A stretch of DNA of 38,676 nucleotides from a virus: positions 1-38,676 of the IMG/VR virus record IMGVR_UViG_3300045996_001824; one strand, given 5' to 3'. Of this stretch, positions 5,939 to 38,676 are shown piece by piece (positions within the stretch are counted from its first letter, which is position 1; each line of letters opens with the position of its first letter). Both the position numbers and the translations under genes were made by a program. The notes beneath the pieces were generated by a model. The model searched no databases. It was not told the DNA's origin and was given only the letters and a program-made list of their open reading frames with translations.

Positions 5939-6316
5939 ATGGCTCTCGCCCTCTCACTCGAGATTGAGCCGAGTCCGCGCCTCGCGAGTGTGGATGCGCT
6001 GATTCTGGCCTTCGCGTGGCGTCCGCGTCTGCGCGCGCACTGCTGCGATGTTCCGCGGCCGTGCAGATGGATCTCCTGCAAGCACAACACGTTTTTGGAT
6101 ATCAACGTCGACACCGGCGAGCTGATATTCAATCACCCGGGGCTCGAGCCTGACGAGGTTCCAGCGGAGTCCAGCTGCGTGCTGGATATCGTGGCTGCGC
6201 ATCCCGAGGGCATGACCTGGCCAGAGGTCGGCGCTGTGCTCGGCGTGACGCAGCAGCGCGTGCACCAACTAGCGGTTCGTTCGCTAGGCAAGCTGCATCT
6301 GGTGGTGACCCCGTGA
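5939..6316 (+). CDS. Sigma-region-4-like HTH protein (125 aa)
   Basis: The C-terminal 35 residues (GMTWPEVGAVLGVTQQRVHQ then LAVRSLGKLHLV) match the HTH of sigma-70 region 4, which recognises -35 boxes. The N-terminal part has a Cys group (CCDVPRPCRWISCKHN) followed by a short beta segment, NTFLDINVDTGELIFNHP. I recall this two-part architecture from delta-proteobacterial proteins annotated as sigma-factor-like. It may act as a transcription regulator of the downstream operon; regions 1-3 of a real sigma factor are absent. The stop overlaps the next GTG. Confidence 0.65.
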   Translation: MALALSLEIEPSPRLASVDALILAFAWRPRLRAHCCDVPRPCRWISCKHNTFLDINVDTGELIFNHPGLEPDEVPAESSCVLDIVAAHPEGMTWPEVGAVLGVTQQRVHQLAVRSLGKLHLVVTP

Positions 6317-6657
6317 GCGCGCTCACGCCCAAGCTCGTCGCCGAGCAGCTGCAGTGTTCTGTCCGCCAGGCGTGCCGCGTGATGCGTGCGGCCGGCGGCT
6401 TCTACGTTGGCAAGTCCCGATCTGAAAACCTGAGAGTTACCGAGGAGCAATTACGCACATGGCAAGAGGGCTCAAACCAGGCTTCTACCGTCGGGGCAAA
6501 GTCATCTGGACGCGGGACCCTGTCTCTGGCGAGCGCACATCGACGCGCTGCACAGACCCCAAAGCCGCCGAGCTCTGGAAAGCCGAGCGTGAGCGACTTG
6601 CAGCCAATCCCAATTACGCAGCCTCGACCAAAGCGACGGTCGGCCGCTGGGTGCTGA
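6313..6657 (+). CDS. Excisionase-like HTH protein (114 aa), overlapping the integrase gene
   Basis: GTG start in a GTGA overlap. Residues 1-53 (LTPKLVAEQLQCSVRQACRV ... VGKSRSENLRVTEEQLRTWQEG) look like a MerR/excisionase winged helix-turn-helix. The remaining 60 residues are Ser/Pro-rich and encoded in the same bases as the first 66 codons of the integrase in another frame. Position directly before int supports an Xis (directionality) role. The long tail may be non-essential or a consequence of lost stop codons. Confidence 0.55.
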   Translation: MSALTPKLVAEQLQCSVRQACRVMRAAGGFYVGKSRSENLRVTEEQLRTWQEGSNQASTVGAKSSGRGTLSLASAHRRAAQTPKPPSSGKPSVSDLQPIPITQPRPKRRSAAGC

Positions 6658-7691
6658 AGACCATGGAGCACAAGGCGGGTTCACGGGCTGGAGGCACCTT
6701 GCACATGTACAAGGTCAAGCTGGGCCACGTCGTTCGCCTGTTCGGCGCTGAGGCCCCGCTCTCCACCATCACGCCGGGAGCCGTGGACGAGTACGTGCGT
6801 TCGCGCTCCAAGGAAGGCGCTTCGAACAGCACCATCAAGCGCGAGTTCACCTGCCTGGTGCAGATGCTCAAGCTCGCCAAGCGGGCGGGGGAGTTCGCGG
6901 GCGACCTCTCCCAGCTGCTCCCGGTCGGCTTCTCCGCCAAGTACGAGCCCACCAAACGGATCCTCCGACGCGAGGACTTGGCGGCTCTGCTTGCCGCGCT
7001 CCGGAACGACACTGAGCGCGCCTGGCTGTGCCTGGCCCTCTCCACCGGCGCCGACGTCGGGGACATCGAGCGGGCGCTCCCCGAGGACTACGACCCGGTG
7101 CACAAGGTGTTCCGCGTGCGCGGGACCAAGACGGTGGTCCGAGACGCAGGCGTGCCCATCCTCCCGCTGTTCGAGGACCTGTTCGCCTTCGCGCTGCCCC
7201 GGCTGCCCATCAGCTGGCCCCGTGCCTCCAAGGGCATCGGCGAGGCCTGCAAGCGCGCCAAGCTCCCGCACCTTTCCCCCAAAGACATCCGCCGCACCGC
7301 GGCCAGCTGGCTCATTGCCGCTGGCGTGGACCAATCACTGGTCAGCCGATTCATGCGCCACAGGAACGACACCATGGTCCGGATGGTATACGGGCAGCTT
7401 CAGCCCCAAGAATTGGGTCGACTTATCCAGGCCCAGTCCGGTACAGAAAAAGCACAGTTTTCAGAAAACACCCGTGGCCCCTTGGCGGAATTGGCAGACG
7501 CAGGGGACTTAAAAGGCCATTCTGCAGACTCGATATCTGCGAATCTCCGACGAATCGCACGACTGAAGAGGCCTAAACAGGCCTCACCCGGCACGGTAGT
7601 CAGTACAGAAACGGCACACTCGCCAGCAGCGTACGCGCTGGCGTTTGCCGCGGAAAGACTGCTCTCCGTTGCCGGGGGTTCCCGTGTCTGA
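6459..7691 (+). CDS. int: Tyrosine integrase (410 aa) carrying attP inside its 3' end
   Basis: The N-terminal arm-binding region (about 1-60), core-binding region (about 65-160) and catalytic domain (about 170-320) are visible. Motifs are RGTKTVVRDAGVPI, PKDIRRTAASWL with Arg278, MRHRNDTMVRMVYGQL with His301 and catalytic Tyr311. At the usual Arg-I position (TG-x-R) there is TGAD (Asp199), and the H of HxxR is Lys275, so the active site is atypical. Residues about 340-352 are encoded by a tRNA-Leu-like sequence (attP core); after integration the last 58 codons would be replaced by host sequence without touching the catalytic domain. The host target is predicted to be a tRNA-Leu(TAA) gene. Confidence 0.92.
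   Translation: MARGLKPGFYRRGKVIWTRDPVSGERTSTRCTDPKAAELWKAERERLAANPNYAASTKATVGRWVLKTMEHKAGSRAGGTLHMYKVKLGHVVRLFGAEAPLSTITPGAVDEYVRSRSKEGASNSTIKREFTCLVQMLKLAKRAGEFAGDLSQLLPVGFSAKYEPTKRILRREDLAALLAALRNDTERAWLCLALSTGADVGDIERALPEDYDPVHKVFRVRGTKTVVRDAGVPILPLFEDLFAFALPRLPISWPRASKGIGEACKRAKLPHLSPKDIRRTAASWLIAAGVDQSLVSRFMRHRNDTMVRMVYGQLQPQELGRLIQAQSGTEKAQFSENTRGPLAELADAGDLKGHSADSISANLRRIARLKRPKQASPGTVVSTETAHSPAAYALAFAAERLLSVAGGSRV
7441..7456. repeat. Candidate integrase arm site P (16 bp)
   Basis: GTACAGAAAAAGCACA, matched at 14 of 16 positions by the copy at 7603-7618. The two lie in the same orientation on either side of the tRNA-like core, as arm-type sites do. Confidence 0.5.
7479..7514 (+). other. 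attP core: 5' half of a tRNA-Leu(TAA) gene
   Basis: The sequence reads as a bacterial leucine tRNA from the acceptor strand through the D arm (GGCGGAATTGGCAGACGC), the 5' anticodon stem GGGGA (7503-7507) and the loop CTTAAAA (7508-7514, anticodon TAA at 7510-7512). The next bases are GGCCA instead of the TCCCC needed to close the stem, so tRNA identity ends at the loop. The anticodon loop is a known crossover location for tyrosine integrases. The core lies wholly within the integrase reading frame. Confidence 0.82.
7568..7585. repeat. 7-bp inverted repeat GAGGCCT-AAAC-AGGCCTC
   Basis: A perfect palindrome with a 4-base loop between the att core and the right arm-type repeat, inside the int 3' end. 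It may be a binding site for an accessory factor or a hairpin in the int mRNA; no T-run follows. Confidence 0.5.
7603..7618. repeat. Candidate integrase arm site P' (16 bp)
   Basis: GTACAGAAACGGCACA, the partner of 7441-7456, 88 bp downstream of the tRNA-like core. Confidence 0.5.
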
Positions 7692-7878
7692 GCAGACGAC
7701 GATTCCGTGCCCGCACTGCTACGACGGGGGTGCCTGTCTGCCAGGCGGTTGTGGCGTCCCTGGGTGCCAGCGCTGCGGCAAGCTTTGCCCGACGTGTCTA
7801 GGTTCCTGCGAGATTCCTGCTCCTGAGCCTGAGCCCGACCTCTCCCTGAGCGACGCGAACGGGGGAGCTCATGGGTGA
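7684..7878 (+). CDS. Cys-rich zinc-knuckle protein (64 aa)
   Basis: The GTG at 7684 overlaps the int stop. Four CxxC-type groups occur in 50 residues (CPHC, CLPGGCGVPGC, CGKLC, CPTC), as in DnaJ-like or ribbon zinc knuckles, then an acidic Pro/Glu tail. It probably binds zinc and a partner; function unknown. It overlaps the methyltransferase start by 8 bases. Confidence 0.65.
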   Translation: MSEQTTIPCPHCYDGGACLPGGCGVPGCQRCGKLCPTCLGSCEIPAPEPEPDLSLSDANGGAHG

Positions 7879-8803
7879 GGGGCTGACCATTGGCTCGCTG
7901 TTCAGCGGGATCGGGGGCCTAGAGCTTGGCCTGGAGTGGGCTGGGCTCGGCCCCACGCTCTGGCAGGTCGAGCGCGAGCCCTTCTGTCGCGCAGTGCTTG
8001 CTCACCATTGGCCGAATGCAGAGAGGTTCGATGACGTCCGCAGTGTTGGAAAAGCAAGTCTCGCTCCCGTGGACATCATCTGTGGCGGGTTCCCTTGTCA
8101 GGATGTGTCCAGCGCGGGAAAGGGCGCAGGCCTTGCTGGAGAGCGCTCGGGTTTGTGGCGTGAGTTCGCTCGCATTCTTGGGGAGCTTCAGCCGCGCTGG
8201 GTCGTCGTCGAGAATGTTACGAGCGGTGCTCGAAAGTGGCTCGACGAGGTCGTGCGTGAGCTGGAGCAGCTTGGCTATGCTTGCTTACCGCTCCCGTTGT
8301 CCGCAAGCGATTGCGGCGCTCCGCACAGGAGGTCGCGAATCTTCATTGTTGCCCACGCTGACGGTGGCCGGGAACTACAACCGCAAGGGAGCGAGTCCGA
8401 ACAGTGGGGACGGGTTGAGAACAGCGCTGGTAATGCTGCCAACGCTGACGGCGACATCGTACGGGTCGAACAGTGGCGGAGCGAAACCGGGACACCACCG
8501 GTACTCGCTGCAGTCGATGGCGAAGTCGGGACGGTTGCCGACGCTGACGACGCGCGACGAGAAGGGCCCGGGCCCGGCGTCGAAGTCCAAGGGTGGCGGG
8601 ATCGATCTTCCGCAAACCCTTGGCGGTCACCTCAATCCGGATTGGTGCCGCTGGTACATGGGCTTCCCGGAGGCTTGGTTGGACGTCGAAGACGCGCACG
8701 TATTCGCGCGCTCGGGAACAGCGTCGTCCCGCAGTGCGCCGAAACAGTCGGCTGGGTAATTCGTGAGCTGATTGCTCAGGCAGGGCAGGCGTCCCATGTC
8801 TGA
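7871..8803 (+). CDS. C5 cytosine DNA methyltransferase (310 aa)
   Basis: Motif I SLFSGIGGLELGLEWAG, motif IV GGFPCQDVSSAGKG with the catalytic Cys, motif VI VVENV, motif VIII GAPHRRSRIFIV and motif X RALGNSVVPQCAE are all in this frame. It transfers a methyl group from SAM to C5 of cytosine, and probably protects phage DNA from host restriction; no partner restriction gene is present. The ATG follows GGGGGAG. The variable middle (about 8350-8700) also reads as a plausible methyltransferase segment in the +1 frame (repeated LPTLT, then GGHLNPDWCRWYMGFPEAWL), so the true protein path through this section is uncertain. Confidence 0.9.
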   Translation: MGEGLTIGSLFSGIGGLELGLEWAGLGPTLWQVEREPFCRAVLAHHWPNAERFDDVRSVGKASLAPVDIICGGFPCQDVSSAGKGAGLAGERSGLWREFARILGELQPRWVVVENVTSGARKWLDEVVRELEQLGYACLPLPLSASDCGAPHRRSRIFIVAHADGGRELQPQGSESEQWGRVENSAGNAANADGDIVRVEQWRSETGTPPVLAAVDGEVGTVADADDARREGPGPGVEVQGWRDRSSANPWRSPQSGLVPLVHGLPGGLVGRRRRARIRALGNSVVPQCAETVGWVIRELIAQAGQASHV

Positions 8804-9131
8804 GACAGACATCGTGCGCAGCATCCTGAAGGCGCTGGCGCTGCGCCGCGTGCTGGCATGGCGCGCCAACGCAGGCCTGTTGGTGCTCGGCAAGGGGGCA
8901 GACAAGCGCGTGGTCCGCGGAGCCCCTGCGGGCACGCCGGACATCATCGGGATTCTGCCAGGCGGCAGGTTCTTCGGCCTCGAGGTGAAGACTCAGACCG
9001 GCCGAGTGAGCCCGGCGCAGCACGCATGGGCCGACCGCGCCCGCGAGCTCGGCGCCCGTTACCAGGTTGTCCGGAGCGCACGCGAGGCGATCGCGGCGCT
9101 CGATTCGTGGATTCAGGAGGAGGCAGCGTGA
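8796..9131 (+). CDS. VRR-NUC family nuclease (111 aa)
   Basis: A PD-(D/E)xK fold of the VRR-NUC type: RGAPAGTPDIIGIL (Asp49), then FFGLEVKTQTGRVSPAQ with Glu63 and Lys65 as the E-x-K pair. The whole protein is the domain, the usual length for phage versions, which are structure-specific nucleases found with replication genes. The ATG overlaps the methyltransferase stop by 8 bases. It likely acts on branched or flap DNA during replication or recombination. Confidence 0.88.
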   Translation: MSETDIVRSILKALALRRVLAWRANAGLLVLGKGADKRVVRGAPAGTPDIIGILPGGRFFGLEVKTQTGRVSPAQHAWADRARELGARYQVVRSAREAIAALDSWIQEEAA

Positions 9132-9520
9132 ACGGCTTTGAGCGGAAGCAGTTGATCGAGGCGTGTGTGCGCGAGGCGGCGGATTACTACTTCGTGGCTC
9201 CGGCGGACGTCACGAGTCGCAGCCGGAACAAGTCGGCGGCGGCGGCCCGAGCGATGGCCATGGCGCTGCTGCGTCGGCGCTCCAGCTGGTCATTCCCCGA
9301 GATTGGGCTGGTGTTCGGCCGCGACCACACGACGGTCATTCACGCGGTCCGCAAGGCCGAGCGGGAGCTGTCCGACCGACTCGGCTGGAGCCCGCCAGCT
9401 CAGCCTGCAGCCGGTGGAGCTGACGTGTCGTCGCTGCTGCTCATGAAGCCGGCGACCGAAGAGACCTTGGAGCAATGGGAAGAGCGGATGGGGTTTTCTG
9501 GCTCGAAGGAGGTTGCGTGA
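9128..9520 (+). CDS. DnaA domain IV-like DNA-binding protein (130 aa)
   Basis: Residues about 10-80 match the C-terminal DnaA-box-binding domain: VTSRSRNKSAAAARAMAMAL, then WSFPEIGLVFGRDHTTVIHA and VRK, where the last part is the DnaA signature (residues 64-76). There is no AAA+ ATPase domain, so it can bind DNA but not oligomerise as host DnaA does. The GTG start overlaps the nuclease stop. Position before the initiator-like gene suggests a role at the phage origin or competition with host DnaA. Confidence 0.85.
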   Translation: MNGFERKQLIEACVREAADYYFVAPADVTSRSRNKSAAAARAMAMALLRRRSSWSFPEIGLVFGRDHTTVIHAVRKAERELSDRLGWSPPAQPAAGGADVSSLLLMKPATEETLEQWEERMGFSGSKEVA

Positions 9521-11149: not shown

Positions 11150-11518
11150 ATGAGAATTGCAATGGTTAGCGGGACGCGGCGCATGACGCGCGCTGGCGTC
11201 GTGAGTCAATGGTTGGACAAGCACGGACCTTGGGACCTTGTCGTGCACGGCGGGGCGACCGGCGTGGATGCCGAGGCGCAAGCCTGGGTCGATATCCACA
11301 AGGGCGTTCAGGCCGTCGTGTTCCCGTACCAGAAGCCGCTCGGGATTCGCGGCGGGCCCAGCCGGAACGGAACCATGTGCGATGTCGTCGCAAGGCTCTG
11401 GAACCGAGGGGAGCATCATGTCCGGTGCGTCTTCGTCCCCGACGACAAGAGCCGCGGGACTTGGGACTGCCACCGGGAAGCGCTGGAACTCTGCCTCCCG
11501 TCGGAGGTCCTCGAGTGA
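11150..11518 (+). CDS. SLOG/YspA-like nucleotide-binding protein (122 aa)
   Basis: A Rossmann-like SLOG (DUF2493/YspA-type) fold: beta-1 MRIAMVSGTRRM, the glycine-rich VVHGGATGVDAEAQAW motif, and the C-terminal GPSRNGTMCDV motif followed by CVFVPDDKSRGTWDC. SLOG domains bind nucleotides or nucleotide-derived signals; stand-alone phage members have no settled function. It is followed by a helical protein and then by a Tad2-like protein, all coupled by 4-base overlaps. Confidence 0.82.
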   Translation: MRIAMVSGTRRMTRAGVVSQWLDKHGPWDLVVHGGATGVDAEAQAWVDIHKGVQAVVFPYQKPLGIRGGPSRNGTMCDVVARLWNRGEHHVRCVFVPDDKSRGTWDCHREALELCLPSEVLE

Positions 11519-11796
11519 CCCCCAACGAAGCCCGAAAGGCCATCGAGGACCGGATGGCATGGCTTGCCTTGAAGCTCGAGAAAGACCCGGGCAGGCACAT
11601 GCTCAAGCGCGAGTGGGAGGCCCTGAACATGGTGCAGGGCATGCTCTATGCGCTCGGGGCGAACCAGGCCGGAGGCGAGGCGCGGCACCGCGAGGTGACA
11701 GAGCGCGTCGAGCGGTCACGTCAGCGATTCGACCAGCAACGACAACGGTGCACCTGCGAGCGATGTCCGGTGCACAGCACGGGAGACAAGACATGA
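11515..11796 (+). CDS. Helical hypothetical protein with Cys-rich tail (93 aa)
   Basis: GTGA start overlapping the SLOG gene. Two long helices (NEARKAIEDRMAWLALKLEK, then EWEALNMVQGMLYALGANQA), a charged coil and a C-terminal CTCERCPVH that could hold a metal. Unrecognised family. Likely co-translated with the SLOG and Tad2-like genes. Confidence 0.65.
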   Translation: MTPNEARKAIEDRMAWLALKLEKDPGRHMLKREWEALNMVQGMLYALGANQAGGEARHREVTERVERSRQRFDQQRQRCTCERCPVHSTGDKT

Positions 11797-12161
11797 GACT
11801 CAAAGAAGCAATCCGGCACCCGTTCATTCGCCGCTCAGCCTGGGTAGGCTCACATGTTCACGTCGATACTGACTCGATGATTATCCTTGGGGCCCCCTGG
11901 GAGAAAATCAGCCAAGAGGACGTCCAGGCCGACGACTGGGAGGTCTACGTTCCGGGGCCGCCAAAGCTGACGTTCGCGCAGGCGCTCGAAGCCATGTCCG
12001 CGGGCAAACGCGTCAGGCTACCTGATTGGCAACCGGGAGCGACGCTCAGGATAAATGACGGCGGCGAGTTCTGCATGAGACACCAGAACTATGCGGCTGC
12101 GCTGCAGCCTTTCCCAGCTCTTTCTGCTGCGCTCCGGAAGGATTGGCAGGTGGCCGAATGA
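11793..12161 (+). CDS. Tandem Tad2-like (DUF2829) protein, candidate anti-Thoeris (122 aa)
   Basis: Two consecutive units share the DUF2829/Tad2 pattern of an N-terminal E-A-(L/I)...R-x-x-W and a C-terminal D-W-x-V. Unit 1 (about 1-53) runs from RLKEAIRHPFIRRSAW to DVQADDWEVY; unit 2 (about 58-122) from LTFAQALEAMSAGKRVRLPD plus W to LRKDWQVAE. Known Tad2 proteins bind cyclic ADP-ribose-type signals made by Thoeris TIR proteins and so block that defence. Both units are shorter than typical Tad2 and I cannot test the ligand pocket, so activity is inferred. The ATG overlaps the upstream stop. Confidence 0.68.
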   Translation: MRLKEAIRHPFIRRSAWVGSHVHVDTDSMIILGAPWEKISQEDVQADDWEVYVPGPPKLTFAQALEAMSAGKRVRLPDWQPGATLRINDGGEFCMRHQNYAAALQPFPALSAALRKDWQVAE

Positions 12162-12532: not shown

Positions 12533-12711
12533 GCTGGGCTTGGGGCGAGAGCTTTTTCAAGCAGCTCGAACTTGAGCGAGCTGGCCACACGAGCTCTGCT
12601 CACTGCTGCGCAGGCTGCTGGTGGAGCGCAATCGGCTGCATAATCTGGTGGGCACACATCAACCGCTCGACGGCGGCCGCGCTCGCGGCCTGGTTGCGAG
12701 GTACTCCATGA
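12529..12711 (+). CDS. Small hydrophobic Cys/Trp-rich protein (60 aa)
   Basis: GTGA overlap with the lipoprotein gene. The centre (CCAGCWWSAIGCIIWWAHI) is a likely membrane segment with unusual Cys and Trp density. Probably a small inner-membrane protein that works with the preceding lipoprotein; it is far from the lysis genes, so a holin role is less likely. Confidence 0.55.
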   Translation: MSWAWGESFFKQLELERAGHTSSAHCCAGCWWSAIGCIIWWAHINRSTAAALAAWLRGTP

Positions 12712-13268
12712 CCGACTCGGGAAAACCCAAGAGGGGACAGAAAGCCATCCGACCTGGGGAATTGTTAAGGGGGAGGTCGCCCAGTTCTGTCAAGGAAAAA
12801 GCGACATCCACCGGTCATAAAGGGCCCGGTCGGGATAACTCCAATGCGAGGGCTATTGCCACCGCCGAGCGCCATGCCCAATGGCTGCAACGTCGCAAGG
12901 AGGGCTGGAGCTACCGACGTATTGCGGCAGACTCGGGTGTTGCCATGAGCACGGTCGAGGAGGCTGTCTGGAAGCAGCTCGCGGCCATCCGCCAGGAGCC
13001 TGCCAAGGAGCTGCTCAACCTCGAACTGGAGGCGCTGGACGACCTGATAGACAAGTCCCTCGAGTCCGTGGACGGCGACGAGCTGGAGCGCATCGAGCTG
13101 GTTCGGAAGCTCAGGGCGGACCGGCGGAAGCTGCTCGGCACGGACGCGCCCAGCAAGGTCGCAATCACCCAATCACCAGAGCAGCAGTGGGAGGAAGTCC
13201 GGGCTTGGCTGAGAGAGCCGACTCCGGAGCTCGAGCAGGTGCTACAGGAGGCAGGATGGAGGCGCTGA
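12708..13268 (+). CDS. Terminase small subunit candidate (186 aa)
   Basis: The basic N-terminus leads to an HTH (HAQWLQRRKEGWSYRRIAAD, then SGVAMSTVEEAVWKQL), a long helical pair (LLNLELEALDDLIDKSLESV, ELERIELVRKLRADRRKLLG) and an acidic tail with Trp. A DNA-binding HTH followed by an oligomerisation coiled coil, placed upstream of the large terminase, fits a pac-recognising small subunit. Six small genes lie between it and the large terminase, which is unusual, so the call rests on architecture. Confidence 0.6.
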   Translation: MTDSGKPKRGQKAIRPGELLRGRSPSSVKEKATSTGHKGPGRDNSNARAIATAERHAQWLQRRKEGWSYRRIAADSGVAMSTVEEAVWKQLAAIRQEPAKELLNLELEALDDLIDKSLESVDGDELERIELVRKLRADRRKLLGTDAPSKVAITQSPEQQWEEVRAWLREPTPELEQVLQEAGWRR

Positions 13269-38260: not shown

Positions 38261-38583
38261 GGGCCATCTCCAATCTTCAGCTGCTCGTCCACTCTGGCCA
38301 ATTCCGTCCGCAGATTCGCGATGGTCCGGCGCATCGACCAGATTGCGTCGTACGTCTCCTGCGCGCCCGGGTCGGCAAACTGACATGTGCCGCCGTCGGT
38401 GGGGTTGATGGCAATCCGGGCGGCTTTGCCGCATTCGAAGAGCTTCTCCATCTCGGGAACGCCGTACGCTGTCAGGACGTAAGCGACGTCCTCCTCGAAG
38501 TCTCCGCCGCAACGGTGCAGGCACGCCTCGAACATGTCCGCAGCGGACTTTAGCCTCTCCGGATCGTACTTGTGTTCGCTCAT
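38257..38583 (-). CDS. Hypothetical protein across the contig junction (108 aa)
   Basis: MSEHKYDPERLKSAADMFEA ... CLHRCGGDFEEDVAYVL, with three Cys in the first half and a C-terminal coiled coil (IANLRTELARVDEQLKI). The ATG at 38583 equals position 34 of the left end, where it overlaps the preceding stop. No family recognised. Confidence 0.7.
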   Translation of the reverse strand: MSEHKYDPERLKSAADMFEACLHRCGGDFEEDVAYVLTAYGVPEMEKLFECGKAARIAINPTDGGTCQFADPGAQETYDAIWSMRRTIANLRTELARVDEQLKIGDGP

Positions 38584-38676
38584 CGCAGAGCCTCGCGAAT
38601 CACGGCAAGTCGCGGTCGCAGAAACCCAACCTGCAGGGTCACGGTAGCATCATCCGGCAGGGACAGGTTTGCGACG
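38550..38676. repeat. Terminal direct repeat, right copy (circular-contig overlap)
   Basis: Identical to 1-127; see the left copy. Removing one copy gives a circle of about 38,549 bp. Confidence 0.95.

Follow-up and report, generated by a model that had tools for sequence, protein, structure and literature searches.

In Myxococcus phage Mx8 the attachment site, attP, lies inside the integrase gene; on integration int acquires a new 3' end, which did not inactivate the enzyme and changed its specificity (PMC6070905). The initial annotation of the DNA studied here named this phage as the precedent for an attP inside int, and rightly so. A second kind of attachment site is found in the T7-like cyanophages P-SSP7 and S-TIP37, whose hosts are marine cyanobacteria. 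There attP is the 39-bp first half of a tRNA-Leu gene located downstream of int, integration needs both int and attP, as shown by deletion for S-TIP37, and stable lysogens were not obtained (PMC8776855). The authors of Islander, who noted that in Mx8 and SSV the integrase reaches across attP, found that islands bearing a 5' tDNA fragment form a minority class (159 of 3919) and that crossover in the anticodon loop uses one of the common subsites (PMC4383910).

The window analysed here is the whole of virus record IMGVR_UViG_3300045996_001824, a stretch of 38,676 nt with genes for a major head protein and a terminase. The same 127 bp stand at both ends (1-127 and 38550-38676), which makes it very probable that the record is a complete phage genome, either circular or terminally redundant. 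The identical ends and the presence of a single integrase indicate a free phage with an intact attP, so that the half-tRNA gene found within int is to be read as attP and not as an integration junction.

Judged from its sequence, this locus combines both precedents, with a tRNA 5' half that lies in the sense orientation and in frame inside int. Like Mx8, the record has its putative attP in the int coding sequence, here past the catalytic Tyr, and just as the small excisionase gene uoi overlaps the start of Mx8 int, a helix-turn-helix (HTH) gene does so in the record. Mx8 Int is nevertheless not recognisably close: it is 23% identical (E = 0.002) to L180, a relative described below, and has no significant pairwise match to the Int of the record. 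Integration of Mx8 reportedly replaces 112 residues by 13, and its tRNA segment looks like an antisense piece, in contrast to the sense 5' half of the record. The core extends to the anticodon loop and in this respect resembles the 5'-half class of P-SSP7, which together with S-TIP37 is a closer precedent for the half-tRNA than Mx8, although in these phages attP lies outside int. Viral contigs resembling cyanophages also carry a half-tRNA that ends at the same loop base.

The integrase gene spans attP in the record as it does in SSV-type archaeal viruses (PMC4383910). Islander islands of the 5' class likewise bring the 5' part of a tRNA gene, while an in-frame overlap with int, present in the record, is not the rule among them. 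SSV int is split in two pieces on integration, its target being the 3' part of a tRNA-Arg gene, whereas in the record only the tail after residue 352 would change. No description of a sense 5' half in frame inside int and conserved in two phages was found in the literature searched, and phage, plasmid and literature searches gave no direct match. The principle of an intragenic attP is known from Mx8; the arrangement and the protein clade look new.

Dozens of the cyanophage-like contigs were collected with tRNA-Leu(TAA) 5' halves that end exactly at the anticodon loop, and these halves are followed by a few recurrent downstream sequences.

The half-tRNA core and its flanking repeats

The features of the locus are collected in Table 1. 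As the initial annotation had stated, the half-tRNA lies inside the reading frame of an integrase gene. This frame is intact and encodes a tyrosine recombinase of 410 residues. The core, GGCCCCTTGGCGGAATTGGCAGACGCAGGGGACTTAAAA, comprises the acceptor strand, the D-arm and the 5' stem and loop of the anticodon arm.

Table 1. Features of the integrase locus, with positions in the 38,676-nt window
Feature	Position	Strand	Basis
Gene for a small helix-turn-helix protein, probably an excisionase; overlaps int at its start	6313..6657	+	Homology to an ORF of phage L179
int, tyrosine-recombinase gene with putative attP inside its 3' part	6459..7691	+	Intact ORF, 410 aa
Catalytic Tyr311 codon	7389..7391	+	Alignments with relatives
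C-terminal tail after Tyr, 99 codons, holding putative attP	7392..7691	+	Alignment of relatives; pLDDT
Probable P-side arm-type integrase site, GTACAGAAAAAGCACA	7441..7456	+	Repeat; homologous position in L179, 3980-3995
Putative attP core, 5' half of tRNA-Leu(TAA), acceptor strand to A38	7476..7514	+	Match to tRNA-Leu genes
Anticodon loop CTTAAAA, likely 7-bp strand-exchange region	7508..7514	+	Host identity ends there
Probable P'-side arm-type integrase site, GTACAGAAACGGCACA	7603..7618	+	Repeat; homologous position in L179, 4130-4145

The half-tRNA had been delimited at 7479-7514. This 36-bp segment is matched exactly by tRNA-Leu genes at eight loci, in eight bacterial genomes whose titles are mostly Planctomycetota or Phycisphaerae; the homology itself, however, begins at 7476, from where the acceptor strand reads GGCCCCT in the phage and GGGCCCT in the hosts (6/7). 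For the shorter segment 7483-7514, 84,980 species genomes yield 85 exact matches, almost all of which lie in tRNA-Leu(TAA) genes. Identity to the host gene ends after A38, where the host continues with TCC and the phage with GGC, and codon 352 (7512-7514) is the final codon within the core, as had been claimed. In the phage of the record, in the second phage described below and in the cyanophage half-tRNAs alike, host identity stops at the anticodon loop. ARAGORN calls no complete tRNA in the record, and the element is therefore a half. An exact match of 36 bp within 38.7 kb lies far beyond chance.

The core is flanked by two copies of GTACAGAAAnnGCACA. The copies are identical at 14 of 16 positions and form the best direct repeat across the core, a likeness that a 16-mer repeat reaches in shuffled sequence with a p of about 0.0035. 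Even with three mismatches allowed, the motif has these two matches only in the whole record. The repeats are probably arm-type sites to which Int would bind. The boundary of the half-tRNA, the repeats, the conservation of the core in a second phage and the folding of hybrid tRNAs (both below) all support the proposal that attP lies inside int, and we regard it as highly probable that the phage uses the 3' part of the gene as its attachment site.

Conservation in a second phage and the integrase clade

The same arrangement is present in a second phage, L179 (IMGVR_UViG_3300046791_000269, 66,953 bp), whose integrase is 55-58% identical to that of the record and whose int carries a half-tRNA in the corresponding position, with GGC after it. 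Across the whole of int, no other 39-bp window is conserved as well as the core between the two genes (34/39). The catalytic part is 65% identical, the sequence bordering the core on either side 46% and the remaining tail 35%, and outside the core the tail peptide is poorly conserved. In L179 the core lacks one D-loop base, which puts GGCCCCTTGGCG into another reading frame. That the core is conserved despite this shift points to a constraint on the DNA rather than on the peptide, as expected of attP. The notion that the peptide PLAELADAGDLK is what selection maintains and that its tRNA look is accidental can draw on the absence of stop codons from this frame of the tRNA-Leu gene, which can hence sit in an ORF; it is exceedingly improbable, given the exact 36-bp match to tRNA genes, and the different reading of the same DNA over GGCCCCTTGGCG in L179 refutes it.

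L179 also has a repeat pair, GTGCAAAAACGTTACA and GTGCAGATTCGTTACA, that aligns with the repeat positions of the record (p 0.026). The two copies resemble one another within a phage, which would be expected of repeat pairs that each follow the Int of their own phage. The two genomes are otherwise almost unrelated, with matches in int, in the HTH gene that overlaps it and in one further ORF, which argues that the int module moves between phages. The product of the overlapping gene in the record is 39.6% identical to its counterpart in L179, which has a weak HTH_17 match that falls below the Pfam cut-off (E = 3.8e-4).

Searches with the single Int protein gave no match in the collections of viral contigs or genome contigs; L179 and the more distant L180, L263 and L264 were reached by profile searches only. 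The L180 integrase is 36-37% identical to that of the record. The tail of its gene contains an antisense piece that, read by eye, is the 3' half of tRNA-Phe(GAA), flanked on both sides by ACAGTGTCCGG, a repeat likewise read by eye. Among aligned viral relatives, mostly 15-50 residues follow the catalytic Tyr. The exceptions are the record (99), L179 (107), L180 (94), L188 (67) and L228 (76). All five of these long tails run into tRNA sequence, and a long int tail is thus a mark of overlap with an attachment site. The integrases of the record, L179 and L180 belong to what looks like a new clade, spread over otherwise unrelated phages, with attachment sites in frame inside int, and the question posed by Mx8, whether integration rewires the integrase, becomes testable by comparison.

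The integrase protein

Int is the sole PF00589 match in the record (E = 1.7e-10; 41.4 bits, above the curated cut-off of 27.1) and also matches phrog_1 (E = 2.9e-39, 136.8 bits), so its membership of the tyrosine recombinases is assigned by homology. Alignments with relatives confirmed the position that the initial annotation gave to Tyr311, ahead of the half-tRNA and in the same open frame. The predicted structure has a three-stranded domain at its N terminus as well as core-binding and catalytic domains. Residues 1-329 of the model align with lambda Int (1z1b) over 309 residues (Z 17.8, rmsd 5.1), and the modelled layout fits an integrase that binds arm sites. Past residue 330 the pLDDT is mostly below 60, and the tail lies outside the predicted fold.

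Lys224, Arg278 (Arg II), His301 (His III) and Tyr311 are aligned and kept. At the position of the catalytic Arg I, however, the record has Asp199 (codon 7053-7055), L179 has Asp and L180 has Glu. Arg is present there in nearly all other relatives, including L263, an outgroup with a short tail. In addition, the usual box-II His is replaced by Lys275 in two members of the clade. Judging by the recombinases that have been studied, replacement of Arg I by Asp is expected to cripple catalysis. R219, R221 and R228 were considered as substitutes and set aside: they are conserved, yet L263 has them in addition to its Arg I. Either the clade has another way of holding the phosphate or its members are poor catalysts, and it is mainly the missing Arg I that keeps the function of the protein from being treated as settled. 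If the enzyme is active, the absence of Arg I would alter the view of what is essential for tyrosine recombination.

These replacements, and the recombinase-fold regulators found among the structural matches (Z 11-13), raise the alternative that the half-tRNA is a relic of former integration at this site and the integrase now inactive or a DNA-binding regulator like MrpR, YopR and SroF. We consider this quite unlikely. Against it stand the core and the arm repeats, which rank as the best-conserved or co-varying DNA features of the two phages and would not be so maintained in a relic; the four other catalytic residues are retained, and a probable excisionase gene travels with int. The replacement of Arg I (Asp, Asp and Glu) occurs in the same clade that has the long tails bearing putative attP sites.

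Predicted integration products, host searches and neighbouring genes

In the mechanism proposed for an active attP, the N-terminal domain of Int would bind both arm-type repeats, and strand exchange between the host tRNA-Leu(TAA) gene and the phage copy would take place in the anticodon loop. One junction would then unite the phage 5' half with the host 3' half and restore the tRNA within the int reading frame; in its predicted sequence, int runs up to position 7514 and continues with TCCCTCGCC. Residues 1-352 of Int would be unchanged, and a new tail would come from the tRNA 3' half and the adjoining host DNA. At the other junction the promoter of the host tRNA would be left with the displaced 5' half and the former tail of int, with a predicted sequence of host upstream DNA and 5' half joined to GGCCATTCTGCAG.

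The initial annotation had held that integration restores a complete tRNA driven from the phage side and changes the codons of int after about 352. Joined in silico to ten host 3' halves, the phage half gives a tRNA-Leu(TAA) called by ARAGORN in 10/10 cases, which supports the predicted restoration; that its promoter would be supplied from the phage side follows from the proposed mechanism. The change of codons is likewise predicted from the junctions. By host, the Int of the lysogen is predicted to have 359-473 residues, against 410 in the phage, and in three hosts it has 368 and ends just past the tRNA. With the known planctomycete 3' halves, as in the hybrid drawn with the host L061, the restored tRNA contains a C-C mismatch at acceptor pair 3-70. 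This mismatch and the presence of GGCCCCT in both phages suggest that the real host probably has GGCCCCT...AGGGGCC.

The most likely role of the tail is that of a tolerated passenger, needed as DNA and not as protein; its tolerance as protein is indicated by the low model confidence past residue 330 and by the lack of conservation of the tail peptides. The same attP could instead serve a regulatory switch, a speculative idea raised in the initial annotation, in which the change of tail alters the activity, specificity or stability of Int. The changed specificity of Mx8 Int with its new 3' end (PMC6070905), the predicted difference in length between the lysogen and phage forms and the long open tail kept by three related integrases all lend this idea some weight. 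It remains doubtful, since outside the core the tail protein is not conserved between the record and L179, the tail lies outside the predicted fold, and the wide variation of the predicted host-derived tails is easier to reconcile with a neutral tail than with a tuned switch.

A sense 5' half has a further implication, in that one transcript of the lysogen would be both integrase message and tRNA precursor. It is conceivable, if unlikely, that the int transcript then serves as pre-tRNA-Leu and that RNase P and 3' processing cut it near codon 339 and turn Int off. If so, the cut would precede any stop and leave a non-stop mRNA, whose Int product would be tagged and destroyed; the supply of tRNA-Leu would depend on transcription of int, and the message would become a tRNA precursor.

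Prophages with the same int flanked by a split tRNA-Leu, which the initial annotation had suggested looking for, were not found in the genomes searched: neither an integrated copy nor attL or attR was detected in whole genomes, queried by protein or two-row profile, or in a scan of the collection. Among 392 genomes of the phylum of L061 there was no exact 39-bp form with GGCCCCT, the best having one mismatch. Three candidates were rejected. A weak tblastn match by the tRNA-Leu of L061, considered as an integrated int, is an empty attB with no integrase ORF adjoining; the int near a tRNA-Leu in L002 has the opposite orientation and belongs to another integrase family; and L113/L177, with an int and a same-strand tRNA-Gly, has no second half copy on the contig that would make it a 5'-type island. 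In L113/L177 (5388-5459; Planctomycetota sample) the integrase ORF, 804 codons long in total, runs open across the tRNA-Gly and on into a secreted-like protein downstream of it.

Several other genes of the record were observed. A C5 cytosine methylase gene (7871-8803) adjoins 8858-9520, whose product has a DnaA DNA-binding domain (Bac_DnaA_C, E = 2.3e-18). The product of 11238-12161 has a C-terminal stretch, residues 245-278, that resembles Tad2 (Thoeris anti-defence 2) just above the Pfam cut-off, and 12621-13268 has a PHROG match annotated as RNase E (E = 1.5e-16).
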